Source: Actinomycetota bacterium | Lineage (GTDB): Bacteria > Actinomycetota > Thermoleophilia > BMS3ABIN01 | Assembly: GCA_023489275.1 (NCBI GenBank) | Contig: JAMDDD010000008.1 | Location: forward strand, 1-64,000 | DNA length: 64,000 bases | Direction: 5' to 3' | In this document: piece after piece, positions 1,498-43,294 of the stretch | Position numbering within the stretch: the stretch's first letter is position 1 | How the letters are laid out: each line of letters begins with the position of its first letter | The notes under the pieces: model-generated | What the model was told of the DNA's origin: nothing | What the model saw: only the letters and a program-made list of their open reading frames with translations | Databases searched by the model: none | Program-made: the position numbers and the translations under genes

Positions 1498-1591
1498 TTA
1501 TTCGTTGCATTGCAAATTCGGAAATCATTGCCTTCAACCCCCAAAACCCGACAAACTTAGTCTTCTAAAAAAGATATTTCTTGGTTTTTGA

Positions 1592-1858
1592 AAAAGGGGA
1601 ATTAAGGCGACCGCAGGGAGCCGTCGTCTGGACGCAGGCCAGACTTCCCACCGTTTCGCCGAGAGACAACGGAGCGAGGGAAACCTTTAGGTCGAAATGG
1701 TGGGAAGTCGGGCCTCATTTTGACCAACAAAATGAGGACAGACGACGCTGGATTGGAGTGGGCTAAATGCCCCGGAAATCCAGTTAATTCCCCCTTTTGT
1801 TTTTAGGTTTTTTCTTATGTTTTGGGGGTTTCTATCGGGTGTTTCTATTAATTGAAAC
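1592..1858 (-). ncRNA. Structured intergenic element, copy A (candidate RNA or DNA hairpin locus)
   Basis: Nested complementary segments at 1592-1605/1784-1798, 1623-1630/1739-1746, 1642-1652/1699-1709 and 1714-1722/1728-1736. Homologous by structure and loop sequence to 13073-13321. Confidence 0.6.
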
Positions 1859-2222: not shown

Positions 2223-2579
2223 ATGAGCGTTAGAGAAATATTCGGGAAGAAGCTGAGGCAGGCGCGAACCGAGAGAAATCTCTCGCAAATGCAAATCAGC
2301 AAAATCCTGGGATACAAGAATCCCGGCTACGTATCGGATGCGGAGCTGGGCAGGTTCGTCCCCCAGCACGACAAGCTCAAGAAATGGGCAAAAGCCCTCG
2401 GCATGACCCAAGCGGAGATGAACAGCCTACTGGCGGACGCAAAATTGGAAGATTTCGGGCTCACCGATCCGGGCTTCACGATCATGTTCAAAGAAGTGCC
2501 GAACATGACCGCCGAGGAAAAGGAATCGATAATCAGAGCCTACAAAAGAGTAACTAAGGCCAGGGAGAAAAAGTCATGA
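2223..2579 (+). CDS. XRE-family helix-turn-helix regulator
   Basis: FGKKLRQARTERNLSQMQISKILGYKN HTH; paralogous to 12305-12691 (shared DPGFTIMFKEVPNMT). Stop overlaps recombinase start. Confidence 0.85.
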   Translation: MSVREIFGKKLRQARTERNLSQMQISKILGYKNPGYVSDAELGRFVPQHDKLKKWAKALGMTQAEMNSLLADAKLEDFGLTDPGFTIMFKEVPNMTAEEKESIIRAYKRVTKAREKKS

Positions 2580-4159
2580 GATGCGTTATCTATCTGAGGG
2601 TGTCCACCAGGGAACAGGCCGAGGGCGGTTATTCCATCCCTGCCCAGCGCGAAGCTTGCATGAAGCTTATCCGCGAAAATGACTGGATGCTGGTCGACGA
2701 GTACGCTGACAGAGGCGAATCAGCAAGATCAACAGCCCGTCCCCAGCTTCAGGAAATGCTCTCAAGGATCAAGAAGAAAGATATCGATGCGGTTATCGTT
2801 CACAAGATCGACCGCCTGGCCCGAAATATGTCAGATCATGTGGCCATCAAAGCCGTTTTAACGCGCTCCGGGGCGCAGTTGGTGTCAGTGGTCGAAAACA
2901 TTGAGGACAGCGCCTCTGGACACTTCGTAGAGGGTATCCATGCACTCATGGCCGAGTTCTACTCCGCCAATCTTTCAGCGGAAGTTAAAAAGGGTCTTCT
3001 TCAAAAAGCCAAGTCCGGCGGAATGGTCACAAGAGCCCCTGTCGGCTACAAGAACGTCAGAGATACGATTGAGGGGAAAAGCATCGCCAAGGTTATACAA
3101 GATGAGGAAATGGCACCTTTGGTAAAGGAATGCTTCGATCTCTACGCCACCGGCAACTATTCCCTGGCAGAGATTCAAAAGATCATGGCCAAGAAGGGTC
3201 TGAGAAACAACTTCTCCAAGAAGCGGCCCTACCCTGAGTTTTGCAAATCTTCAATCGCCATGCTGCTTCAAAACCGCTTTTACATGGGGATAGTCAAGTA
3301 CCGAGGCGTTGAGTATCCCGGACTTCATGAGCCGATTGTCGAACCCGCTCAGTTTGAGAGAGTCCGGCAGATGTTGAAATCAAGAGACCAGGCCGGAGAG
3401 CGAAAACGAAAACATCCGCATTATCTGAAAGGCACCATCTACTGCGCCGAGTGCGGTTCCAAGCTCTCCTTCCTCCTGGCCAAAGGCAAGTATCCGTATT
3501 TCTACTGCCTGGGGCAGAAGAAGCATAATGGCTGCTCACAGAAATACGTGGATGCCGACTGGGTGGAAAAGAAAATCGAGGACCTATATCGAGATATTCA
3601 GTTGCCTACTGAGACAGTCCAGAAACTGAAAAAGATCATGGAAAAGGAAATCGTCAATCAACAGGCTTCCTCAATCCTCCAAAGAAAGCGTCTCATCAAA
3701 AAGACAGAGGAATTAAACGACAAGAGATACAAATTGGTCGAGGCATATTACGCCGGAGCAATCGCTATCGATATTCTAAAAGGCGAGCAGGAAAGGCTGG
3801 TCAATGAGATAGGACTGGCAGAAGATCAGCTGAAAGTCCTTGACGGAAAGCATGAGAACGTTCAGGAACTTTTGGAGCTGGCAATAAAGCTTGCCGGTAA
3901 CTGCCATAAGGCTTATTTAAAGGCCGAGGGTGATAACCGGCGGCTCATGAATCAGTCGTTCTTCAAGAAAATCTTCATTGGTGAAAAAGGCAGAAAAATG
4001 AAAGAGCCGGAATACAGCGATCTCTTCCATGAGCTTTTTTCAGGTGACAGTTTGAATAAGTCAAACCTGGTCGGGGTGGGCGGATTTGAACCGCCGGCCT
4101 CACGGTCCCGAACCGTGCGCTCTACCAGGCTGAGCCACACCCCGAAAAGCGGATGGTAG
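2576..4159 (+). CDS. Large serine recombinase of element A; 3' end runs antisense through tRNA-Pro
   Basis: MRCVIYLRVSTREQAEGGYSIPAQREAC resolvase N-domain, recombinase domain, CxxC...C zinc ribbon and coiled coil; C-terminal VGGFEPPASRSRTVRSTRLSHTP is antisense tRNA translation. Confidence 0.92.
   Translation: MRCVIYLRVSTREQAEGGYSIPAQREACMKLIRENDWMLVDEYADRGESARSTARPQLQEMLSRIKKKDIDAVIVHKIDRLARNMSDHVAIKAVLTRSGAQLVSVVENIEDSASGHFVEGIHALMAEFYSANLSAEVKKGLLQKAKSGGMVTRAPVGYKNVRDTIEGKSIAKVIQDEEMAPLVKECFDLYATGNYSLAEIQKIMAKKGLRNNFSKKRPYPEFCKSSIAMLLQNRFYMGIVKYRGVEYPGLHEPIVEPAQFERVRQMLKSRDQAGERKRKHPHYLKGTIYCAECGSKLSFLLAKGKYPYFYCLGQKKHNGCSQKYVDADWVEKKIEDLYRDIQLPTETVQKLKKIMEKEIVNQQASSILQRKRLIKKTEELNDKRYKLVEAYYAGAIAIDILKGEQERLVNEIGLAEDQLKVLDGKHENVQELLELAIKLAGNCHKAYLKAEGDNRRLMNQSFFKKIFIGEKGRKMKEPEYSDLFHELFSGDSLNKSNLVGVGGFEPPASRSRTVRSTRLSHTPKSGW
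4068..4145 (-). tRNA. tRNA-Pro (CGG)
   Basis: Minus strand TCGGGGTGTGGCTCAGCCTGGTAGAGCGCACGGTTCGGGACCGTG...GGTTCAAATCCGCCCACCCCGACCA, cloverleaf with encoded CCA. Confidence 0.95.
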
Positions 4160-5697: not shown

Positions 5698-6543
5698 TTA
5701 ATCAAGCGGTTTTACTGCCATTCCATGTTTTAGATAATCGCCCAGCCGGACCAGGATATAAGTCCCAAAGGCAAAGCTCGTGACAAAGAAACTAACCGGA
5801 TAAGGCAAGTAAAACGCAATGACCAGGCCGCTCCAGGTAAACAGCAGCGCAAACAGCACCGAAAGCAGGATCGCGCGGGCGGGCCGCGCCGTCAACCGCT
5901 GAGCGATTGCCGGCGGCGTAACCAGCAAGGAAAAAATCAGCAGAACGCCGACGACCTGCGTCGCTTCTGACACAGCCAGCGCCAGTAGCACCATAAAAAC
6001 AACGGAAAGAAACCGGATGGGGACTCCCCTGCCCTCCGCTACTTCTTCGTCAAAAGAAGCAAAAAGCAACGGCCGGTAAATGGCGGCGAGCGCCAGTAGC
6101 GTAGGAATGCCGGCAAGGAGGGTTACGAGAACGTCGCTTTTGCTGATGCCAAGGATCTCGCCGAATAAAATCGCATACGCTTCGGTTGCGTATCCGGTGT
6201 AAAGGGACAGAAATAAAACGCCCAGACCCAGGGTCCAGGCCAGCACAATCCCGATGGCGACATCCCGGCCGTACAGGCGCCGGCCGAGCGAACCCATGCC
6301 GATGCTTGCCACTGTTGAAAAAACAATCAGTCCGTAAAGCGGGCTGACTCCAAGAACCACCGCACCCGTCGCGCCGGCAAAACCAATGTGGGCAAGCGCG
6401 TGACCCGCAAAAGAAAGACCCCTGAGAACGACAAAATAGCCGACGACGCCGGCAACGATAGAAACGATCGTTCCGGCCTCAAACGCGTTCCGCATGAAGT
6501 CATAATTAAATATCGACGGCAGATCTATGAGAAGAAGCATCAC
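5698..6543 (-). CDS. znuB: Metal (zinc/manganese) ABC transporter permease
   Basis: ABC-3 family multi-TM protein next to an ABC ATPase, a periplasmic metal-binding protein and a Fur-family regulator. Confidence 0.85.
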   Translation of the reverse strand: MMLLLIDLPSIFNYDFMRNAFEAGTIVSIVAGVVGYFVVLRGLSFAGHALAHIGFAGATGAVVLGVSPLYGLIVFSTVASIGMGSLGRRLYGRDVAIGIVLAWTLGLGVLFLSLYTGYATEAYAILFGEILGISKSDVLVTLLAGIPTLLALAAIYRPLLFASFDEEVAEGRGVPIRFLSVVFMVLLALAVSEATQVVGVLLIFSLLVTPPAIAQRLTARPARAILLSVLFALLFTWSGLVIAFYLPYPVSFFVTSFAFGTYILVRLGDYLKHGMAVKPLD

Positions 6544-9331: not shown

Positions 9332-9407
9332 GGCGCATTCGTCTAGTGGCCCAGGACGCCGCCCTCTCACGGCGGTAGCAGGGGTTCAAATCCCCTATGC
9401 GCTACCA
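9332..9407 (+). tRNA. tRNA-Glu (CTC)
   Basis: GGCGCATTCGTCTAGTGGCCCAGGACGCCGCCCTCTCACGGCGGTAGCAGGGGTTCAAATCCCCTATGCGCTACCA. Confidence 0.93.
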
Positions 9408-10905
9408 TATCTATTTTGTGCGAACTCGGCGAGAAGATAGGCTCATAGATTTCCGTATAGTGGCCTTCTGAGAGTTCCTTATCCTTTACAAATATCTTAT
9501 TGAAGAAAGCCTGGTTATAGAGTTTTCTGATAGAAGGCGTTGCTTCTTTGTATCCGAGGCCGCAGGTCATGGCCAGCTTAATTGCTCTTTCCAAGACCTC
9601 AGTGTGCTGATCAAGCTTGACGGTGATTTTCCTAAGCCTTGCTTCTGAAGAAGCTACCTCATCTGCAATTCGCCTCTGTTCGCTTTTTAAAATATCAACA
9701 TCAATTGCTCCGGCGTAGAAAGCTTGCATGAGTTTCAATTTTTCTGAGGCAAGTTTGGCGATTCTTTTGCCTAGCAACTGCTCTTCCATGGCATTTGTTG
9801 ACTGCCCAGAGATGATTTCATTATTGAAACTTTCGATGATCCTGTCAGCCATCTCCTGGTTAATCTGAATATCCCCATAAAGTTTCGCGACTTCATTTTC
9901 AAGGAATTCAGCCTCAACATAGGGTTGAGTACAGCCCCGGCCACGCTTGGTCCCCAGGCAATAAAAGTATGGATATTTTCCTTTGGCGACTAAATATGAA
10001 AACCTTGAGCCGCACTGCCCGCAAAACAGTGTGCCTTTTAAATAATGAGGATGCTTCCTTTTCCTTTCACCTACCTGATCCCTGGCTCTTAGCGTGGCCT
10101 GAACTTTTTTGAATAGCTCTCTAGTGATCAAAGGCTCGTGTTTTCCTTCATATTCAATACCCTTGTAAGTTATGACGCCATAATAAAAAGTGTTTTGAAG
10201 GAGCTTGTGCACCCCATTCATGGACATTATCCCTGTTTTGCCTGCCCGCCGTTGACCGATGCCTTTGTCAAAAAGAAATTCTCGTATCTCTTCCAGGGAA
10301 CAATTGCCTGAGGTATAAAGCTGAAATGCTTCTTTGATATAAGGAGCAAGGTCGGGATCGATAACAATCTTGGCCAAACCTTTCCTTGTCCCCGGAATCT
10401 GTTGTCTCATGTTTTTGTAACCAACCGGGGCTCTTCCTGGCCACCCCCCCTCTTTCACCATCTCGTCCATGCCTTTTTTGACTTCAGTCCCAAGGTTGTC
10501 GGAAAAATACTGCGCCATAGCCGAGTAGATGTTTTCCATCAGTTTCCCTTGGGCGGTGTCTTCAATTTTTTCAACAACTGACACAAGTTGGCAGCCCGCC
10601 CGGTTTAATTCACCCTTGATAATTACGTGGTCTTCGACATTTCTTGAGAACCGATCCAGCTTGTGAACAATCACTGCGTCAATGTCTTTATCTTTCTTAA
10701 TGCGCGAGATCATTTCCCGAAGCTGTGGCCGTTGGCTGCTTCTCGCTGACTCTCCGCGATCAGCATATTCATCAACTACATCCCAGCCCTCATATTCAGC
10801 GTGTCTTAAACATGCTTCTCGCTGGGCAGCGATAGAATAACCCTCTTTGTCATTGGTGAGGGTCTGCTCAGTGGTTGACACTCTTAGATATATGATGCAT
10901 TTCAT
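9367..10905 (-). CDS. Large serine recombinase of element B; stop codon lies inside tRNA-Glu
   Basis: MKCIIYLRVSTTEQTLTNDKEGYSIAAQREACLRHAEYEGW resolvase domain, recombinase domain, zinc ribbon CGQCGS...C; ends VAHRGFEPLLPP within the tRNA. Confidence 0.92.
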   Translation of the reverse strand: MKCIIYLRVSTTEQTLTNDKEGYSIAAQREACLRHAEYEGWDVVDEYADRGESARSSQRPQLREMISRIKKDKDIDAVIVHKLDRFSRNVEDHVIIKGELNRAGCQLVSVVEKIEDTAQGKLMENIYSAMAQYFSDNLGTEVKKGMDEMVKEGGWPGRAPVGYKNMRQQIPGTRKGLAKIVIDPDLAPYIKEAFQLYTSGNCSLEEIREFLFDKGIGQRRAGKTGIMSMNGVHKLLQNTFYYGVITYKGIEYEGKHEPLITRELFKKVQATLRARDQVGERKRKHPHYLKGTLFCGQCGSRFSYLVAKGKYPYFYCLGTKRGRGCTQPYVEAEFLENEVAKLYGDIQINQEMADRIIESFNNEIISGQSTNAMEEQLLGKRIAKLASEKLKLMQAFYAGAIDVDILKSEQRRIADEVASSEARLRKITVKLDQHTEVLERAIKLAMTCGLGYKEATPSIRKLYNQAFFNKIFVKDKELSEGHYTEIYEPIFSPSSHKIDMVAHRGFEPLLPP

Positions 10906-11076: not shown

Positions 11077-11502
11077 CTACTTCTCCAAAATCTTTAGAAA
11101 CTGAGCCGGGGTCATGATTTTGATGCCTTCGTATTCTTTCAGATCAAGGAGGTCGCTGTCACCAGAGACTATTAAATCAGCCTGGGCTTTGACGGCGCAC
11201 TCAAGGATGCGGTTATCGGAATCGTCACGTTCGGGGGAGATGGCTGAAATTGATTTTTTAGTTGAGACAACATCGCCCCATTTAACGAGGAGTTGGGCGG
11301 CTCTTTCAATTTTAGGAGCAGACCAAAGGAACTTTTCGCCGGAGAGGGTTCTGGAAAGTTCGTTTAAAATGAACGGGGAGAGGAAGAGGTCAAATCTTTT
11401 GGTGGTCCTGCCGTGGGCATAGGCCATGATTGCCCGCGGCTTGCCGCCAAAGTTAAGGGCGGATACAAGCACATTGGTATCGAGGACGACTTTAAGATAC
11501 AC
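11077..11502 (-). CDS. PIN-domain toxin of a type II toxin-antitoxin pair
   Basis: VVLDTNVLVSALNFGGKPRAIM ... DDSDNRILECAVKAQADLIVSGDSDLLDL. Confidence 0.88.
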   Translation of the reverse strand: MYLKVVLDTNVLVSALNFGGKPRAIMAYAHGRTTKRFDLFLSPFILNELSRTLSGEKFLWSAPKIERAAQLLVKWGDVVSTKKSISAISPERDDSDNRILECAVKAQADLIVSGDSDLLDLKEYEGIKIMTPAQFLKILEK

Positions 11503-11752
11503 CTCTTACCTCATGTATGATCCTCTCAATGTCTTTTTCCGTGATGCCCGCTTCCTTGGCTTTTTTCTCGCCGTACCTGGTTAGCTCTTCCCATTCTCTT
11601 TCGTCCTGCAACTCTTCATAGGCAGCGATCATTTCACGGAAGAGCTGGCTTTTGTTTTTTCTTTCGATGCGCGCTCGTCTATCGACCACCTGGAAGTCTT
11701 CCGGCGGCAGGGAAATGGTTACTGTTTTTGATTTTCTAGCCAACATACTCAC
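11492..11752 (-). CDS. Ribbon-helix-helix (CopG-like) antitoxin
   Basis: KTVTISLPPEDFQVVDRRARIERKNKSQLFREMI; overlaps the PIN gene. Confidence 0.8.
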   Translation of the reverse strand: MSMLARKSKTVTISLPPEDFQVVDRRARIERKNKSQLFREMIAAYEELQDEREWEELTRYGEKKAKEAGITEKDIERIIHEVRGVS

Positions 11753-11850: not shown

Positions 11851-12321
11851 TTAACCCGCCCTGGCGGCGCTTCTGCCGCTTAAATCCCGTTCGAAATTGG
11901 CCCAGACTTTCAGCCGGAGTCTGACGACTCCTTCGGTAACTTGGAAGTGATTTGCCATTTCGTCAATTCTGTTTCTGTTCGCAATGAACTTTTGAAGCTC
12001 GGATTGAGGCATGAGCAGGCAGGCGGCGAAGACGTTAGCCTGCTTCTCATGGTAATTGCCGAATGAATAAATCCGCTTCTGCATGGCCAGGTGATTTCCG
12101 GCATGCATCAGGTGATGGCCGACAGCGTGGGCAATCAGTTCCCGCTGTTTTCTGCTTGAGAGGCTGCTGTTTACGGCGATCATGCCGGGAACATAGAACT
12201 CGGTGAGCCTGCCTTCCATTTCCTCGGAAATGACAGAAAGACCCAGACTCTCAGCAATCTCGTCCAGGTCGTTGCCGTACTGCCGGTATATTTCATTGGC
12301 TTTATCAATTACCCGCTTCAC
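11851..12321 (-). CDS. ImmA/IrrE-family metallopeptidase-like protein
   Basis: IAVNSSLSSRKQRELIAHAVGHHLMHAGN; NVFAACLLMP. Next to the XRE gene. First motif Glu is replaced (HAVGHH). Confidence 0.8.
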   Translation of the reverse strand: MKRVIDKANEIYRQYGNDLDEIAESLGLSVISEEMEGRLTEFYVPGMIAVNSSLSSRKQRELIAHAVGHHLMHAGNHLAMQKRIYSFGNYHEKQANVFAACLLMPQSELQKFIANRNRIDEMANHFQVTEGVVRLRLKVWANFERDLSGRSAARAG

Positions 12322-12691
12322 TTCTTTTTCCTATGTCCTCTCTGGCCTTAAGAATATTTTCGAAAGTCTTGATGAGCGAATTCTTTTCCGCCGTTGTCAT
12401 GTTCGGCACTTCCTTAAACATAATCGTAAATCCGGGATCGCTGAGCCCCAGCCGTTCCAGTTCGGCATCGACCTTCAAGTCTTCGATCTCTTCCCAGGAA
12501 AGCCCCATAATGTCAGCCCAAGCTTTTAGCTTGTCGTCTGAGGGAAGGAAGCGGCCCCTCTCTGCATCTGAGAGGTAGCTGTTAGAGCCGACTCCAAGAC
12601 GCTCAGCCAGGTCTTCCTGGCGGATGCCCCTCTCAAGCCGAATCTGCTTCATCTTCTTGCCGAAATGAATTGTTTTAAATTCTTCATTCAT
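12305..12691 (-). CDS. XRE-family regulator, paralogue of the element A regulator
   Basis: FGKKMKQIRLERGIRQEDLAERLGVGSNSYLSDAERGRFLPSDDKLKAW; DPGFTIMFKEVPNMT shared with 2223-2579. Likely start MNEEFK. Confidence 0.85.
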   Translation of the reverse strand: MNEEFKTIHFGKKMKQIRLERGIRQEDLAERLGVGSNSYLSDAERGRFLPSDDKLKAWADIMGLSWEEIEDLKVDAELERLGLSDPGFTIMFKEVPNMTTAEKNSLIKTFENILKAREDIGKRSEAGN

Positions 12692-12892: not shown

Positions 12893-13099
12893 ATGATAAG
12901 AGTTTTTCCAAAAGAGATCGACCCCGAGAGGTTAAGCAGCCAGCTTGATTTGCTGGCTCGTGCCATTTGGAAAAACGCTGAATATCAAATCAGGGCAGAA
13001 ATGAAGACGCTCTCCAGGAAATCAAAGGCACCATATTCGACTCATGAAGAGAAAGAAACCGTTTCACCACCCGTTTCTATTAATGGAAACCCCCGATAG
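12893..13099 (+). CDS. Small hypothetical protein (68 aa)
   Basis: ORF MIRVFPKEIDPERLSSQLDLLARAIWKNAEYQIRAEMKTLSRKSK; its 3' end enters the conserved GTTTC...GAAAC block. Confidence 0.4.
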   Translation: MIRVFPKEIDPERLSSQLDLLARAIWKNAEYQIRAEMKTLSRKSKAPYSTHEEKETVSPPVSINGNPR

Positions 13100-13321
13100 A
13101 AACCCCTAGAAACTTGAAAACCACCAGGGAAATTAACCGTCTTGCAGGGCATTTAGCCTCTTTAAGCCGGTGCCGTCTGTCTTCGTTTGTAGGGCAAAAC
13201 GAAGCCCGACTCCCCGCCCCTCGACTTGCAGTTACCCTCGTTCCTTCGTCTCTTCGGCGAGGCGCGGGGAGTCTGGCTTATCAGCCAGACGGCGCTCCTA
13301 CGGAGCTTAATTTCCCTGGTG
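13073..13321 (+). ncRNA. Structured intergenic element, copy B (candidate RNA or DNA hairpin locus)
   Basis: Perfect 15-bp terminal inverted repeat CACCAGGGAAATTAA (13122-13136) / TTAATTTCCCTGGTG (13307-13321) enclosing stems 13172-13179/13286-13293, 13181-13188/13197-13204, 13208-13217/13264-13273 and 13219-13223/13258-13262. All stems have counterparts with compensatory changes in copy A. Confidence 0.65.
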
Positions 13322-13342
13322 TAAAAACATGAAAGGCAAAAG

Positions 13343-14179
13343 ATGAAAAGAAGGAGAACAAATCAAACGGTATCAATGCGGCTGACGGCTCGTGATGTGG
13401 CGATCATTTTGAGCGTTTACGAGAACCGCTTTTTGAAGCGGGATCAGATTCAGCGTCTGCATTTTCCCGATGTTTCACGCTATGCCTGCAACAAGAGGAT
13501 CAAAGCTCTTTATGAGAATAAGTTTTTGGATCGGCTTGTGAAACCCGTGGCTGTCGGTTCTCATCAGCTGGTTTATGCCCTGGATAAGCGGGGAGCCGAC
13601 GTCGTTGCCGCCGCCCTTGAGATTGACCGTCGCAAGGTCAAATGGCAGAGAGCCCACAACCGGGTTGAGTTTCTGTTCCTTGATCATACGCTTGGAGTTT
13701 CCGAGTTTAGGGTTTGCCTTGAATTGGCGCTCAGGGGAAGAGGCGAATGCGCCTTTTTCTATGAGAGGGGCGACAAATCACACCTTCGGCGCATTTCCAT
13801 GACGGGAGCCAAGAAGAAATATTTCGTGGTCGCCCCCGACGCCTTCTTCGGCATTCAGAGCGGAAGGGGAAAGCATGTCTTCTTTCTTGAAGTTGATATG
13901 GGAACAGAACCGCTGTCGAGATTCGCCGAAAAGATTGTCGCTTACAAGAGATATTGGAAATCACATCAGTACACCGAAGAATACGGATTTAACCATTTCC
14001 GCGTCCTCACGGTCGCGGAAAGCGAAAGGCGCATGCTTAATCTGCGCCAAGCAACGGGGAAAGCAGGGGGACAGAGAATGTTTCTGTTTTCGACCTTCCA
14101 AGCCATTCAGGAAAACGGCGCGCTTGGAAGTGTCTGGCTTTCTCCAATTTCAAACGAACCAACTTCTTTGTTGGAATAG
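13343..14179 (+). CDS. Replication-relaxation family protein
   Basis: RLTARDVAIILSVYENRFLKRDQIQRLHFPDVSRYACNKRIKALYENKFLDRL winged-helix start typical of the family; starts 22 nt after the structured element. Confidence 0.75.
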   Translation: MKRRRTNQTVSMRLTARDVAIILSVYENRFLKRDQIQRLHFPDVSRYACNKRIKALYENKFLDRLVKPVAVGSHQLVYALDKRGADVVAAALEIDRRKVKWQRAHNRVEFLFLDHTLGVSEFRVCLELALRGRGECAFFYERGDKSHLRRISMTGAKKKYFVVAPDAFFGIQSGRGKHVFFLEVDMGTEPLSRFAEKIVAYKRYWKSHQYTEEYGFNHFRVLTVAESERRMLNLRQATGKAGGQRMFLFSTFQAIQENGALGSVWLSPISNEPTSLLE

Positions 14180-16430: not shown

Positions 16431-17813
16431 TTAGTCAACATATTTATAAGGTTCCTCTGGCTCTTCGATGGCAATTGAAGACGAGAATGTTACATCTTCA
16501 TCAAGTGTTGCCAAGCTGAGTGTTTTGCCTGAATCCTTATTTCGTAGTCGAAGGGTCGCTAGATTTTCTACGAGGTGGGAGCTTTCATCCAGGTCGAAAG
16601 TTCGAAACATCATCGAGTTTTTCCCTTTTGTTTTTAGGATGGCAACCTGGGTGTCTAAGTCCATCAGTTCACTGATCCCTTGTTCTCTCTGCTCGTCTTT
16701 TGTGAAATAGGTATTTGATAAGTCAATCCTGTCCTTCACATCCCACGGATCGTATTCCCTCATGTATTTGATGATCAGCTCCGCGTCCTGCCTGTCGCAC
16801 CTGTAAATGACGAAATTCTTGGCGTTGCCGAGGATGATGTCCCGTAATTGCTGGTCGAGCTGAACGAGGCTCTGATGAGCCAGGATGAGCGACAACCCAT
16901 ATTTCCTGGCCTCGCTCATGATCTCGGCAAAGCTCAGTGTGGCGTAGTTTTGAAACTCGTCAACGTAAAGGTAAAACGGCTTTCTCTCTGATGGTGGCAG
17001 GTCAACCCTCGACATTGCTGCCATTTGAATCTTGGCGACGAATAAAGCTCCTAGCAGGAAGCTGTTGGTTCTCAGTACTCCTTTTGCGAGGTTAATGAGG
17101 ACAGTTTGTTCTTTGTCCATGATCTGCCTGAAATCAATGGTTGATTTTTTGGCAGATAGCATTAGGCGTATTCTAGGGTCGCTGGTAAATGAAGAAACTT
17201 TGTTGAGAGTAGATTCGACGTTAGAGATTCTGTCTGCTTCAGACCATCTCTCAAATCTGTCATGCCAGAATATATCTACTCCCTCATAAGAGACATACTT
17301 CATTTTCTCTTTGCGGAACTTCTCGTTTGTGAGAAGCGGTTCAATGTCTAACATTGTTCCCCCCGCTTCGATGAGGGTCAAAACTGAATTCCGCAAAATT
17401 TCTATCAGCCGAGGCGTCTTGTCTTCCGAGAGATTCCAAATCTTCCGAAACACTTCAACAAGTTCAAGCATTTGGGTGTAAGGATCAATCCCTGGCTGAA
17501 CTTCCAGTGGATTAAATCCGATGATGTTGGCCGGATCGGTCATCTCGACTAGGGTGACATTCCGAAAATCGTCAAGATTTCCAATAATGTCGTTGATAAG
17601 GTCGCCGTGGGGATCAATAACGCCGCATCCATTACCGTTCATAATGTCACCCAGAATCCAGGTGGCAAGCCCTTTAGATTTGCCAACACCTGAGCTACCC
17701 AGCACATAGATGTGAGTTGATCTGTCCTCCTCGGGCAAATAAAAACCGACGATCTCGTCGGCGTCGTTATATGTTATGCCGAGTTTTAAATTCATAAATT
17801 GAATGATAGACAC
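16431..17813 (-). CDS. VirD4/TraD-type coupling ATPase (conjugative DNA transfer family)
   Basis: THIYVLGSSGVGKSKGLATWIL Walker A, GCGVIDPHGDLINDII, FYLYVDEFQNYATLSFAEIMSEARKYGLSLILAHQSLVQL. Confidence 0.88.
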   Translation of the reverse strand: MSIIQFMNLKLGITYNDADEIVGFYLPEEDRSTHIYVLGSSGVGKSKGLATWILGDIMNGNGCGVIDPHGDLINDIIGNLDDFRNVTLVEMTDPANIIGFNPLEVQPGIDPYTQMLELVEVFRKIWNLSEDKTPRLIEILRNSVLTLIEAGGTMLDIEPLLTNEKFRKEKMKYVSYEGVDIFWHDRFERWSEADRISNVESTLNKVSSFTSDPRIRLMLSAKKSTIDFRQIMDKEQTVLINLAKGVLRTNSFLLGALFVAKIQMAAMSRVDLPPSERKPFYLYVDEFQNYATLSFAEIMSEARKYGLSLILAHQSLVQLDQQLRDIILGNAKNFVIYRCDRQDAELIIKYMREYDPWDVKDRIDLSNTYFTKDEQREQGISELMDLDTQVAILKTKGKNSMMFRTFDLDESSHLVENLATLRLRNKDSGKTLSLATLDEDVTFSSSIAIEEPEEPYKYVD

Positions 17814-23881: not shown

Positions 23882-23918
23882 ATGGTACCCCCCCCCCCCC
23901 CCCCGAGACTTTTGTCAA
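23882..23918 (-). promoter_or_regulatory. Promoter-like motif with poly-G spacer: TTGACA-AAAGTCTC-G17-TACCAT (25-nt spacer)
   Basis: TTGACA at 23918-23913, TACCAT at 23887-23882, C17 on the plus strand at 23888-23904; flanks match 1466-1497. Confidence 0.55.
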
Positions 23919-24058
23919 TAATCTGAGTCGTGCTAGATTTCATCACGTCTCAAATTGCGCAGCCCAAGGCAAGATCGTTAAATAAGTCTAATTTGCATGC
24001 AAAGCTTGAGTAAGAGGAGATTAGGCCAAGGGTTTGACCTAATTAGGACGGGGGTTTC

Positions 24059-27256: not shown

Positions 27257-27332
27257 GTTTTCTACCGCTTTTTCGAGCTGGAAGAGGACATCATTGTTCG
27301 AATAGCTTACGATAGCGTCTACCATATCTATT

Positions 27333-27616
27333 ACGGTCTCGTTCTTTCTCCAGGCGCTCGGCCTCGTAGTCCCTGCCTGAGCCAAAAACTTCGGGCATGG
27401 ATTTAAGCGCCTGCTTCTTCCATTGACCGATCTGGTTGGGATGGACTGAGAATTCCTGGGCGAGCTCGTTTAATGTGCGTTGTCCCTTGATCGCTTCCAG
27501 GGCGACCTTGGCTTTGGACTCCTTTTTGAACTTTCTGCGGTTAACACTCATGAAGCCCCTTTCCTGAAACAGCAGGTTCCATCTTGACCTACTGTCCCGT
27601 TTTGGGGGTCCACTAT
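27333..27616 (-). mobile_element. IS3-family remnant (orfA only), truncated at the element B right repeat
   Basis: MSVNRRKFKKESKAKVALEAIKGQRTLNELAQEFSVHPNQIGQWKKQAL orfA homologous to 28507-28791; end ATAGTGGACCCCCAAAA. Confidence 0.8.
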
Positions 27617-28506
27617 AATGATTCAGACATTTGTGCCCTCTTCGACAATTTTAATTTCTTCTTCAGTGAGATCGTAGAGCTCGTAGACGAGGCGGTCGAT
27701 CTGGCGGTCGGTGGCGTCGATCTGGCGTTGGAGGGTTGTTTTGTCGTGGGAGGTTTTGGCGGTTTGAAGTTGTTTGTTTAGGTCTAGCATGCGGTTGACT
27801 AGTTCGACCATCTCGTCATGGCGAGATTTGTCGGTGGGGTTGGAGAAGTTGATTTCTTTGATAGGAACTTTAGCTAAATCGACTACACGAATTGACACAT
27901 CTAATATACATTTTCGATACCAAAAATTAATAAATCTGGAATTCAGCAACCCTAAAATATAAAACAGATTATAATTCTGACCAGATTTAAGAACTGCATT
28001 TAGAAGAACACCAGCGCTATAAGTCAAGTCATCGTCTAAATAACCAACGACCAGGCGCTGGCGTAGCACTGGATTCCTTAGTTTCTGGATAACGAGGCGA
28101 GGGCCTTTAAAAAACCTTTCATTTACAGCATGGGCCAACCAGGGACCATAGCTAATCCAACTTTTTTGATTCCAGTGGACTTTGTAACGTGAGACATCGC
28201 GCCCTAAAAGTTCTTTTTTAAATGTCCCGTCCTTTTGATGATCACAATGAAACAGTCGGCCGTTAACGATTTCTTCCGCTCGCGAACGACCATACTTTTC
28301 AGCAAGCGATGATCTGCGGTAAAGTGTCAAGCCTTGAGTAATCTCAACGATCTTACTCAGCGCAATTGTGTGTTTGCTGATGTTTTCCAGAATGTTGATG
28401 TCATCTGCTGTGATCCGGGGGTTAAAACGTAACGAAGGATTATAGTGGACCCCCAAAATGAGACAGTGGGTTAAGATGGAAACCTGCTGTCTGAGAAAGG
28501 GGTTTC

Positions 28507-28791
28507 ATGAGCCGCAGAAAGTTCAGCAAGGAGTTCAAAGCCAAGGTCGCCCTGGAGGCGATCAAGGGCCAGCGAACCATAAACGAACTCGCCCTGGAGT
28601 TCGGCGTCCATCCCAACCAGATCAGCCTCTGGAAGAAACAGGCGTTGGCCTGCCTACCGGAAGTTTTCGGCACCGGCAAAGACCACGAGGCCGAGCGTCT
28701 CGAACTCGAACGCGACCGCCTCTACAAGAAGGTGGGCCAGCTGCAGGTGGAAGTGGACTTCCTTAAAAAAAACATCGGACATCTGGACTGA
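28507..28791 (+). CDS. IS3-family transposase OrfA
   Basis: HTH MSRRKFSKEFKAKVALEAIKGQRTINELALEFGVHPNQISLWK; A8 run near the 3' end compatible with programmed frameshifting. Confidence 0.9.
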   Translation: MSRRKFSKEFKAKVALEAIKGQRTINELALEFGVHPNQISLWKKQALACLPEVFGTGKDHEAERLELERDRLYKKVGQLQVEVDFLKKNIGHLD

Positions 28792-28793
28792 CG

Positions 28794-29645
28794 GTGGCTA
28801 CCAAACGTGCCATGATCGAGCCGGCTCACCGGGAGCTTAACGTCAGCGCTCAGTGCGAACTGCTCGAACTGCCCCGGGCCAGCTATTACCGCACTCCTCA
28901 GCCGGAATCAGATGAGAACCTGATGCTGATGCGCCTGATCGACGAGCTCTACACCCGCCGCCCATCCCTGGGATCGCGCGGGATGCGCGACCGCTTAAGG
29001 CTTAAGGGCCACAGGGTAAACCGCAAACGGGTGCAGAGGCTGATGAATATCATGGGCATCGAATCGCTGGCGCCCCAGAAGAAGAAAACCACCGTGCCGG
29101 CCCCAGGACACAAGATCTATCCGTATCTGCTCAGAAACCTGGACATCGTCAGGCCGGATCAGGTCTGGTGTAGCGATTTTACGTATATTCGCCTCAAGCG
29201 CGGCTTCGTCTTCTTAACGGCGGTGATGGACTGGCACTCCCGCTACGTGCTCTCCTGGGAGATCTCGGTGACCATGGACGAGGAGTTTTGCGTCAGCGCC
29301 CTGGAGCGGGCCTTAAGACGGCACGGCGCTCCGGAGATCTCCAACACCGACCAGGGTTCGCAGTACACCGGCGCCGCCTATACCGGCGTGCTCAAGGATC
29401 ACAAAGTCAAAATTAGCATGGACGGCAAAGGCCGGGCCACCGACAACATCATGATCGAGCGCCTCTGGCGCACAGTGAAGTACGATGACATCTATCTCAA
29501 GGACTACGAGACCGTCGAACAGCTGACCCGTGGACTCAGGATATTCTTCGATGACTACAACAACCAGCGGCCGCACAGCTCGCACGGCGGCAAAACTCCG
29601 GCCCAGATCTACTTCGGCGCCGCTGCTCTTCGGCAGGCCGCCTGA
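28794..29645 (+). CDS. IS3-family transposase OrfB (DDE integrase core)
   Basis: RPDQVWCSDFTYIRLKRGFVFLTAVMDWHSRYVLSW; ISNTDQGSQYTG; YNNQRPHSSHGGKTPAQIY. Confidence 0.92.
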   Translation: MATKRAMIEPAHRELNVSAQCELLELPRASYYRTPQPESDENLMLMRLIDELYTRRPSLGSRGMRDRLRLKGHRVNRKRVQRLMNIMGIESLAPQKKKTTVPAPGHKIYPYLLRNLDIVRPDQVWCSDFTYIRLKRGFVFLTAVMDWHSRYVLSWEISVTMDEEFCVSALERALRRHGAPEISNTDQGSQYTGAAYTGVLKDHKVKISMDGKGRATDNIMIERLWRTVKYDDIYLKDYETVEQLTRGLRIFFDDYNNQRPHSSHGGKTPAQIYFGAAALRQAA

Positions 29646-32019
29646 TGACTGTCATGCTGGTATGCGGATTGAAAAAAACCTTTACACCTTAAATCAAGAA
29701 AAGGTTGTATTGACATTGGGGTCCACTTCCGATTGCTCAGCCATGACTTGATTGGCACGTTTCGACACTTATTGATCAATGTTCCCGACGAAGAAACTTC
29801 AATTATTTCTTCCTTTTTAATCTCGCCTAAACAAATTACGTTGCACCTATTACGGGATGCTACGATTATGCAGCTGTCCATCTTTACGCCAGCAAAGACA
29901 TTTTCAGGAAACACAATTAAGGAATGTGGACAAAATGTACCGAACAGGAACTCCCGAAGTTGCGCTGTTTGGGAACGAGAAATCCAATAACTAGGAGTAA
30001 TGAATCCCCATAGTCCAAACTTATTTAACAAGAGCGAAACGCGTTCCACAAAATAAATATAGCTCTCAAATTTTCCTGTATTCAAAGAATAACGAAGCTT
30101 GAAATACGGCTTTTCTGATTCATCAATGTACGCGCCCCATGGCGGATTTCCAATCACGATGTCAAACCCTCCGGCCTTCATAATTTCCGGAAAGCCGCCT
30201 GGCCCATCCCAATCAAAAGCATTGACACGGTAACGCACTTCCTCCTCCAACAACCCCATCTGCTGCCCCTCAAAAAAATCCGTCCCAATCAGCGAGTTAC
30301 CGCACTTGATGTTATTTCCCAAATCAGGCAGCGCCCGCTCGTGAAAGAACTTGAGCTGCGAGTTGATGGTTTCCTGCGATTCTTCTTCCAACACTTTGAG
30401 CAGCAGTGAAAGCTTGGTAACCTCGACGGCCTGCGGGTCGATGTCCACGCCGTAGATGTTGCCCAGCAGAATCCGTTTCTTCTCCGCCGTGGTCAACTGC
30501 CAGCCGTTCTTGCCCGCGAACAGGCGCGGCTCCTTGCCGGTGGCCCACTTTTTCGCTTCGTTCTCTGAGTACCAGTCGCGGTGCCAGTCGAGCAGGTATT
30601 CGTAGGCGCCAATCAGAAATGAGCCGGAGCCGCAGGCGGGGTCGAGTATCCTCAGTTTCTCTGCCTGCTTCGGGGTCTTGTCCGCAAGCAGCTTCCCGAC
30701 GGTGTTCTTCACGATGTAATCAACGATATAGGTTGGCGTATAGTAAACGCCTCCCGCCTTCTTAACCTCAGGCTTGTCCTCGACCTTGGCCTGGTGCCCG
30801 GCTGTCAGCCTGATGACCTTGCCGAGGAACTGCTCGTAGACCTGGCCGAGGATGTCGATGGGGAGCACCGAAAATTCATAGGGACTGTCAGGGTAGTAGA
30901 GCCCTTTTAGTATCTGCTTCAGCGGTTTGTCGTCGATGGTGAGGCCAAGCGTGAGCTCATCCGGATGGTTCGGGTTGCCCCGTTCCTCCCTGAAGTGGAA
31001 CAGGCCCGAGTTGTAGCGCTCGTCGGCTTTCTGAAACAGCTCGAGGAGCCGCGCGTAAACGTTGGCGCCGTTTTGCATCCCATGGAGATTGCCGTAATCC
31101 TCGATTCCCCTGTCCTCACAGATGCGCAGGAAGATGATGCGGTCGATGGTGACCTGCACCGCCTCGTTGAGTTCGCGCTGGCTGAGGCCCGGGTTGCGCA
31201 AGGCGATGTTTTTTGCCAGAAGCTCGCGCCAGCTTTCTATCTCCTTGAGAAATTCCTTGTCCACCTCACCGGTGCCGCGCTTGGCCTTGGCAGAGGTGGC
31301 CATGCGGTCGAGCCCGCCCCTCTTGATGCCCTCGGGAGAGAAAGCATCGAGCAACTCTTCAAGATGGTCGAGGTACTCATCGTACCGCCAGTAACGGATG
31401 CGGCCCGTGCTGGCCTTGTCGCTCGGCAGCGGCTTTGCCCGGCAATCGACGATGGCCAATTCCTCGAAATCGGTGACGATTGAGAGCGGCAGCTTGGCGC
31501 TATAAGCGTAGCGGCGGAGCTGGTAATACGGATCGGGGTCGTTCTTCATATCCACGGCGGGCTTTTTGGCTTCAACGAAGAACTTGCGCTGACCGCCGAT
31601 GCGGAAGCAGTAATCCGGCGCCTTGGTCATACCGCCCACCTTGATGGCGTCTTCGTGGATGACATCCTTGTAGGCGGGCGCATAGCCGGCCTCGTTGTCT
31701 ATGTCCCAGCCGAGCGCCTTGAAGAAAGGGTCGATGAATTCGCGGCGGGTCTGGGTTTCGTTGTAAGCGGGATTCTTGTAAGCGGCTTCGTTGATACGGA
31801 AGTTTTCCACCAGCTCGGCGACGCGCACGCGGATCTCGGGGGGTACGACCGGGCGCGCCGGCTCGCCGGTAGCAGCTTGCTGCTCGCCCACGGGCTCGTC
31901 AGGGTTTGGCTGACCAGTTGACATGCCGCGATTATATCACCGCATGCGGATGGCGCACTATGGCGGCTACCTTCAAACGCGAGATTCTTCGGCGCCTGCG
32001 GCGCCGCAGAATGACTAAC

Positions 32020-43037: not shown

Positions 43038-43112
43038 CTTGCTCCTTTCCATTTGGGGCTTTCGAACAAATAAAAAAACCGCACAGCGGCGGCATGGCTC
43101 CCGGCCAAGAGT

Positions 43113-43202
43113 CATCCCTTCGCTGGCATTATCCAGATCAGGTTCGCAGGGTCAGCGAAAACATCACTTTCTCAGCTGCTTGATTGCAGCTCCCCGTTAT
43201 GA
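43113..43202 (-). ncRNA. TPP riboswitch (THI element)
   Basis: Minus strand ACGGGGAGCTGC...GCAGCTGAGA...GACCCTGCGAACCTGATCTGGATAATGCCAGCGAAGGGA. Confidence 0.95.
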
Positions 43203-43294
43203 ATGGGAGGATTATATCATGCGGGTTCGGACAGCGTAAAACATAAAACCGGACATTGCATTTTAGCTGTTGGATTATGGACAAAACAGGCTTC

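Follow-up and report, generated by a model that had tools for sequence, protein, structure and literature searches.

The window analyzed here is a 64,000-nucleotide stretch of contig JAMDDD010000008.1 from an Actinomycetota bacterium of the class Thermoleophilia. It harbors two integrated elements, which we call satellite A and helper B, and each of them carries one copy of a structured core. Copy A (positions 1585 to 1815, minus strand) belongs to satellite A, which encodes an HTH regulator (2223 to 2579, plus strand; Pfam HTH_19/HTH_3) and a large serine integrase (2576 to 4159, plus strand; Pfam Resolvase, Recombinase, and Zn ribbon). The 3' end of the integrase gene overlaps a tRNA-Pro(CGG) gene detected by ARAGORN (4068 to 4144, minus strand). 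This is the insertion site of the satellite, and the corresponding site is empty in genome G018. Copy B (13105 to 13326, plus strand) lies in helper B, an 18-kb integrative mobilizable element in a tRNA-Glu gene (9332 to 9407, plus strand; ARAGORN).

Helper B is bounded by a 14-nt direct att repeat, CTACCATATCTATT, at 9402 to 9415 (left end, plus strand) and 27319 to 27332 (right end, plus strand). On the minus strand, it encodes a large serine integrase (9367 to 10905; Pfam), a PIN/RHH toxin-antitoxin pair (11077 to 11752; Pfam PIN_3 and RHH_1), an IrrE/ImmA-like peptidase (11851 to 12321; Pfam Peptidase_M78), and an HTH regulator in an ImmR-like position (12305 to 12691), the ORF of which is homologous to the HTH genes of other helpers. 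On the plus strand follow a small conserved ORF of 68 aa (12893 to 13099), a single bind-type block with the tag GTTTC/GAAAC, inside which this ORF ends (13061 to 13106; nhmmer, with the block itself being part of the profile), copy B, and the gene for a PF13814 (Replic_Relax) relaxase of the MOBC type (13343 to 14179; Pfam E value, 2.4e-33). A VirD4/TraG-like coupling ATPase is encoded further downstream (16431 to 17813, minus strand; Pfam TraG-D_C and T4SS-DNA_transf). Helper B thus combines the site-specific integrase and flanking att repeats (starting at 9402 and 27319) of an integrative mobilizable element with a relaxase and a candidate oriT, and mating-pore genes are lacking (neither PF03135 nor PF19044 was detected in the genome).

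Beside the right end of helper B, we observed 207-nt inverted repeats (27334 to 27540 and 28512 to 28718) that are 80% complementary. The region from 27334 to 31924 contains a restriction-modification-like gene, apparently split by an IS3-type element (28794 to 29645). Two promoter-like sites on the minus strand (1470 to 1500 and 23890 to 23925) are composed of TTGACAAAA..TC, a run of at least 12 G, and TACCATTAGCTA, and one of them precedes a gene for an FG-GAP repeat protein. The G run between the -35-like and -10-like sequences suggests that expression may be phase variable. An ordinary TPP riboswitch (43098 to 43206, minus strand) is present beside thiamine genes.

In a preliminary description, the DNA at positions 1592 to 1858 was proposed to form a structure shared with copy B and preserved by compensatory changes. 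This span corresponds to most of the core and most of the first repeat block (1825 to 1870); four further blocks are located upstream of copy A (1890 to 2115), and neither this array nor the link to relaxase genes nor the existence of two element classes was part of that description. We confirmed that copy A (read on the minus strand) and copy B (plus strand) are members of one structured family, with the proposed stems and the changes in both arms between A and B present in the sequence. The fold comprises an outer stem, a GGGCATTTAGCC hairpin, two inner hairpins, and a terminal hairpin, and the covariance model matched copies A and B with 206.6 and 218.8 bits, respectively. The two copies, which are the only full cores in the 1.58-Mb draft genome of the window, are 71% identical over the element, and 14 of 68 pairs changed on both sides with pairing kept. 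The fold energy of the A strand was -113 kcal/mol, compared to a shuffle mean of -75 (z -8.6); the opposite strand folds too.

When 299 genomes of the class were searched with blastn, copies were found in 9 of them, all in the window's own family. With a covariance model built from 12 copies, we detected about ten more divergent copies in this family and two copies in other families of the phylum. Two-sided changes were found at 12 pairs among the 12 copies, at 28 of 66 pairs among 22 copies, and at 34 of 66 pairs in the set including Candidatus Aquicultor. The latter set contained 149 such cells, while the controls gave 45±6 (shuffles) or at most 18 (slid structures). Copies from other genomes thus upheld the covariation that had been noted between A and B. 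Furthermore, Rfam searches at gathering and permissive thresholds returned chance microRNA models only, in line with the earlier statement that no named RNA family is recognizable. A MITE was rejected as well, since full cores occur only in two classes of elements with an integrase and are tied to the relaxase.

The structure had been attributed to selection on either RNA or single-stranded DNA (ssDNA). The selected fold is well supported, and of the two options, the evidence favors DNA. At the paired columns of 22 copies, we counted, on the strand read, 11 G-U and 27 A-C cells, which are not independent of each other. Because G-U is not in excess over A-C, these counts do not support an RNA on this strand and would fit DNA, as would the relaxase gene as the usual partner and a layout resembling known oriTs (see below). 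The loop TTTCCCTCGCTCC..., previously regarded as conserved, is kept in a subset of the copies, but in several others the apex of the long hairpin is an unrelated sequence. The apical loops of L031, L033, and L036, for example, differ from each other, as if cassettes had been exchanged. In L036 (6790 to 7087; genome G024), the inner hairpin pair is tandemly duplicated, resulting in a longer element. The GTTTC-ATTAAT-GAAAC / CCCGATAGAAACCCC block is indeed kept from A to B, but it is a separate module, which differs in other elements.

Nearly every relaxase-bearing element (helper) has the core directly upstream of a PF13814 (MOBC) relaxase gene and directly downstream of one block of approximately 46 nt. 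At every core-bearing helper locus with the flank present, the core is located between the divergent HTH gene and the PF13814 gene. The layout integrase-(IrrE)-HTH/block/core/relaxase recurs in the first twelve regions, some flanks of which are cut by contig ends, and in the two further families of the phylum, the core is upstream of PF13814 too. Relaxase loci were also found independently of the core, on genome contigs of metagenome-assembled genomes (MAGs) labeled Thermoleophilia, Gaiellales, Actinomycetes, Candidatus Aquicultor, or only "bacterium." Five of these loci were scanned with the model, and the core was detected upstream of the relaxase gene in four (Candidatus Aquicultor, 56.8 bits, and three of the four others). 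In the exception, L090, the block (5945 to 5990) runs straight into the relaxase start and the core is absent, as if cleanly deleted. Viral contigs contained no relative of the relaxase; in plasmids, the core was unmatched and the relaxases were only distant. The host genomes are uncultured MAGs, mostly labeled Thermoleophilia or Actinomycetes.

The relaxase of helper B matched PF13814 with 116.3 bits (curated cutoff, 25.3), a family that corresponds to the MobC superfamily in CONJscan (PMC5357655). Its acidic residues of the PD-(D/E)XK type (D...E-x-D/E), D166, E183, and D185, are invariant in 10 aligned sequences, and the helper residues align with the D and E-x-E of the pAM373 relaxase. The N-terminal region also aligns with the pAM373 protein, whose HTH_45 match is weak; the AlphaFold model (pLDDT 36) was too poor to search. 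Among MOBC relaxases, TraX is described as a relative of restriction endonucleases; its N terminus contains a winged HTH, and the protein binds to 5 direct repeats located 70 to 120 bp from nic (PMC12857230). In pAM373, which is typed MOBC, GTATGCCTAAAG-type repeats (period of ~11 to 12 bp) are followed by a large inverted repeat, inside which lies a 24-bp hairpin, and then by the PF13814 gene. The same order is found in the helpers, which supports reading block and core as an oriT. In the helpers, as in the Enterococcus faecalis pAD1/pAM373-type oriT, the PF13814 relaxase gene is thus preceded by a repeat block and by a large inverted repeat that encloses a hairpin, the ~11- to 12-bp period being seen in pAM373. 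Differences from the enterococcal oriT, with which we noticed no sequence similarity, are the arrangement of the repeats as nested inverted pairs, the four branches of the folded core, and the block arrays of the satellites. In pAD1 and pAM373, the repeats reportedly differ from one element to the other, whereas the core with the inverted repeat is conserved.

The same pattern was observed in the helpers. Each block consists of two nested 5-bp inverted repeats (e.g., GTTTC-GTTTC-GAAAC-GAAAC), about 12 bp apart. Among helpers, the tag changes as a set (TTTC, TTAC, TTGC, TTGAT, and TTAAT), while the core stays conserved. In a comparison of ten loci, tag distance was not correlated with core distance (r 0.09) and showed a weak correlation with the N-terminal domain of the relaxase (r 0.41, p 0.05). 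It was also correlated with the small ORF (r 0.32, p 0.02) and the integrase (r 0.37, p 0.01). Helper L028, which has an L030-like tag and an L030-like relaxase N terminus with an L025-like core between them, supports a link between tag and relaxase. In contrast, helper L027, in which a TTAAT tag is combined with a relaxase N terminus of the TTAC type, contradicts it. The relaxase may be the reader of the tag, but the correlation is weak and tags also track the small ORF and the integrase. The small ORF of the helpers (51 to 68 aa; 12893 to 13099 in the window and at the same place elsewhere) overlaps or abuts the bind block, and it diverges in step with the integrase (r 0.75, p 5e-4). Judged by this pattern, it may encode a recombination directionality factor or an accessory protein.

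Copy A and about ten other copies represent a second class of elements, the satellites, which have the same core, a related serine integrase, and an HTH gene but no PF13814 gene. They are mostly located in elements with an integrase 85 to 93% identical to that of satellite A, most of them in tRNA-Pro; in L069, L076, and L077, there is no integrase within the stretch covered. PF13814 genes and helpers are equal in number in each of the seven genomes that contain satellites, so there is no extra relaxase gene. With their own integrase in a tRNA site and no relaxase in the element, the satellites of the copy A class have the hallmarks of relaxase-less integrative mobilizable elements (IMEs), or iOriT elements. 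The satellite cargo that we scanned includes an AbiE-type antitoxin, a cation efflux gene, and IS110, but no mobilization gene. Exact and near-exact repeat searches did not reveal att repeats of the tRNA-Pro satellites; the empty tRNA-Pro site of G018 bounds the satellite of G012 to at most about 14.8 kb. Satellite and helper co-occur in seven of seven core-bearing satellite genomes, an argument that loses weight through shared ancestry and because genome G036 encodes a satellite integrase homologue but contains no helper.

The two classes differ in the number of blocks. Using an nhmmer profile made from helper blocks only and run over 445 kb of loci, we found exactly one block in each helper and two to five blocks (E < 0.5), spaced roughly 65 nt apart, in satellites. 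No match at E < 0.2 was located away from a core. More than one block was present in 10 of 11 satellites but in 0 of 16 helpers (Fisher test, 1.3e-6, a statistic that ignores phylogeny). The exceptional satellite, L069, has one block and a rearranged neighborhood. There is one core per array.

In satellite A, all five blocks are on the minus strand. Block A1 (1825 to 1870; E value, 5e-8) has the tag GTTTC/GAAAC and is most similar to the block of the coresident helper B (83%). The other four match helpers in other genomes. Block A2 (1890 to 1935; tag class TTAC/GTAA) is the weakest, with an E value of 0.079 and a best helper identity of 68%. Block A3 (1944 to 1977; class CTTGC/GCAAG; E value, 1.6e-5) matches L028 and L030 (81% identity to L030), A4 (1995 to 2040; class TTGAT/ATCAA; E value, 4e-4) is 85% identical to the block of L032, and A5 (2069 to 2115; class ATTAAT; E value, 0.016) is 77% identical to that of L027. 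The order of tag classes from proximal to distal is conserved in satellites (TTAC/TTTC - TTGC - TTGAT - TTAAT), and satellite blocks are mostly 70 to 87% identical to those of the matching helper. In L071, a hybrid block occupies the proximal position, and some of the distal blocks of L070, L075, and L077 are visible by eye only. One of the latter, in satellite L070 (G048), has an exact 21-mer in common with helper L029 (G018).

Taken together, we interpret the structured element as the oriT core for PF13814/MOBC relaxases, present in helpers and in relaxase-less satellites with a multihelper docking array, and assign this reading a probability of about 0.7. We infer that the relaxase binds to the blocks and nicks in the core and that the satellites are mobilized in trans. 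The core would act as folded single-stranded or extruded DNA. In a helper such as B, the single adjacent nested-repeat block would dock the element's own relaxase, which would nick within the folded core and pass the nicked strand to the VirD4-like ATPase. In a satellite such as A, each block would mimic the site at which relaxases of another helper specificity class dock. Any helper relaxase present could load on the fitting block and nick the single core that all blocks of the array have in common, and the satellite strand would then leave via the helper's coupling ATPase and some channel. With somewhat less confidence, we also consider it probable that the satellite oriT is a composite "key-ring" oriT, in which one nicking core is combined with ordered docking sites imitating the tags of different cocirculating MOBC helpers, widening the helper range without duplicating a recombinogenic core.

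No VirB4-type mating-pore ATPase (PF03135 or PF19044) was found in 19 family genomes, despite the presence of PF13814 relaxases and VirD4-like ATPases. This lack is the main gap in the transfer reading, and it would fit a core that serves as a double- or single-strand replication origin of the excised circle, with the PF13814 protein starting rolling-circle replication and transfer being secondary or absent. Rolling-circle replicons typically have ssDNA origins with strong folds, and Pfam names the PF13814 family replication-relaxation. We nevertheless consider this unlikely, since helpers encode a VirD4/TraG-like coupling ATPase and CONJscan classes PF13814 as a MobC relaxase (PMC5357655). 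The two explanations overlap, as one nick site could serve both replication and transfer. It is very unlikely that the core is instead a structured RNA, i.e., a relaxase mRNA leader or a small RNA needed for mobilization. Its location immediately before the start codon of the relaxase gene and its good RNA fold are compatible with this, and a mobilization sRNA beside an oriT has a precedent in the sgm-sRNA of SGI1 (PMC9299015). However, both strands fold, A-C cells outnumber G-U cells, Rfam has no match, and in satellites no relaxase gene follows the core. An RNA leader of the relaxase is thus not favored.

The blocks could also have roles other than relaxase docking. They might be operators for a helper repressor or regulator, by which a satellite senses the induction of several helpers, as phage satellites do. 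Satellites commonly sense helpers, and HTH genes are found in helpers and satellites alike. Against this stands the distance test, in which tag divergence was unrelated to HTH divergence across the ten loci (r -0.01, p 0.5); the HTH proteins of L025 and L036, for instance, are 90% identical, but their tags differ. Moreover, the block overlaps the end of the small ORF beside the core and not the promoter region on the HTH side. Operators of the HTH regulator are therefore not supported by this test, and we regard such a function as distinctly unlikely. The regular spacing of roughly 65 nt suggests duplication, but that the arrays are simply tandem duplications under random drift, unrelated to helper specificity, is highly improbable, given the conserved order of tag classes across satellites, the closest similarity of each position to a particular helper class, and the 21-mer that is identical to a helper sequence from another genome.

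The proposed oriT system resembles several known ones. The gene combination of helper B is that of the streptococcal IME_Class_8 (serine integrase, MobC, and VirD4; PMC5357655), but helper B has an IrrE/HTH regulator pair and the conserved small ORF, and its hosts are uncultured MAGs. The satellites are similar to relaxase-less IMEs or iOriT elements, which have an integrase and a helper-like oriT but no relaxase (PMC5704250, PMC11389934). They differ in that one core is accompanied by several different docking blocks and the helper itself is a MOBC-type IME. In Staphylococcus aureus plasmids with two or three oriT mimics (PMC4652767, PMC8136818), one hitchhiker likewise has several specificities matching different helpers, and a variable specificity repeat lies beside a constant core. 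In these plasmids, however, each specificity is a complete oriT with its own core, whereas here the specificities form a tandem array and share one core. In S. aureus plasmids with two oriTs, same-strand pairs are absent, and the authors suspected relaxase-mediated deletion between them; if several docking sites serve one core, such core-to-core recombination would be avoided. Both elements that carry only an oriT and plasmids that combine several whole oriT mimics are already known (PMC11389934, PMC4652767, PMC8136818). In the literature searched, which was covered in part, we did not find a description of a single-core array with multiple docking sites.

With these elements, two questions can be asked at the sequence level: by what means a hitchhiker broadens the range of helpers that it can use, and how docking and nicking by a MOBC relaxase take place at separate sites. 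In uncultured genomes, transfer origins are usually difficult to recognize; the covariance model and the docking-site profile can find them in part of the Actinomycetota. If binding is confirmed, specificity (block) and catalysis (core) would be separate, interchangeable modules.
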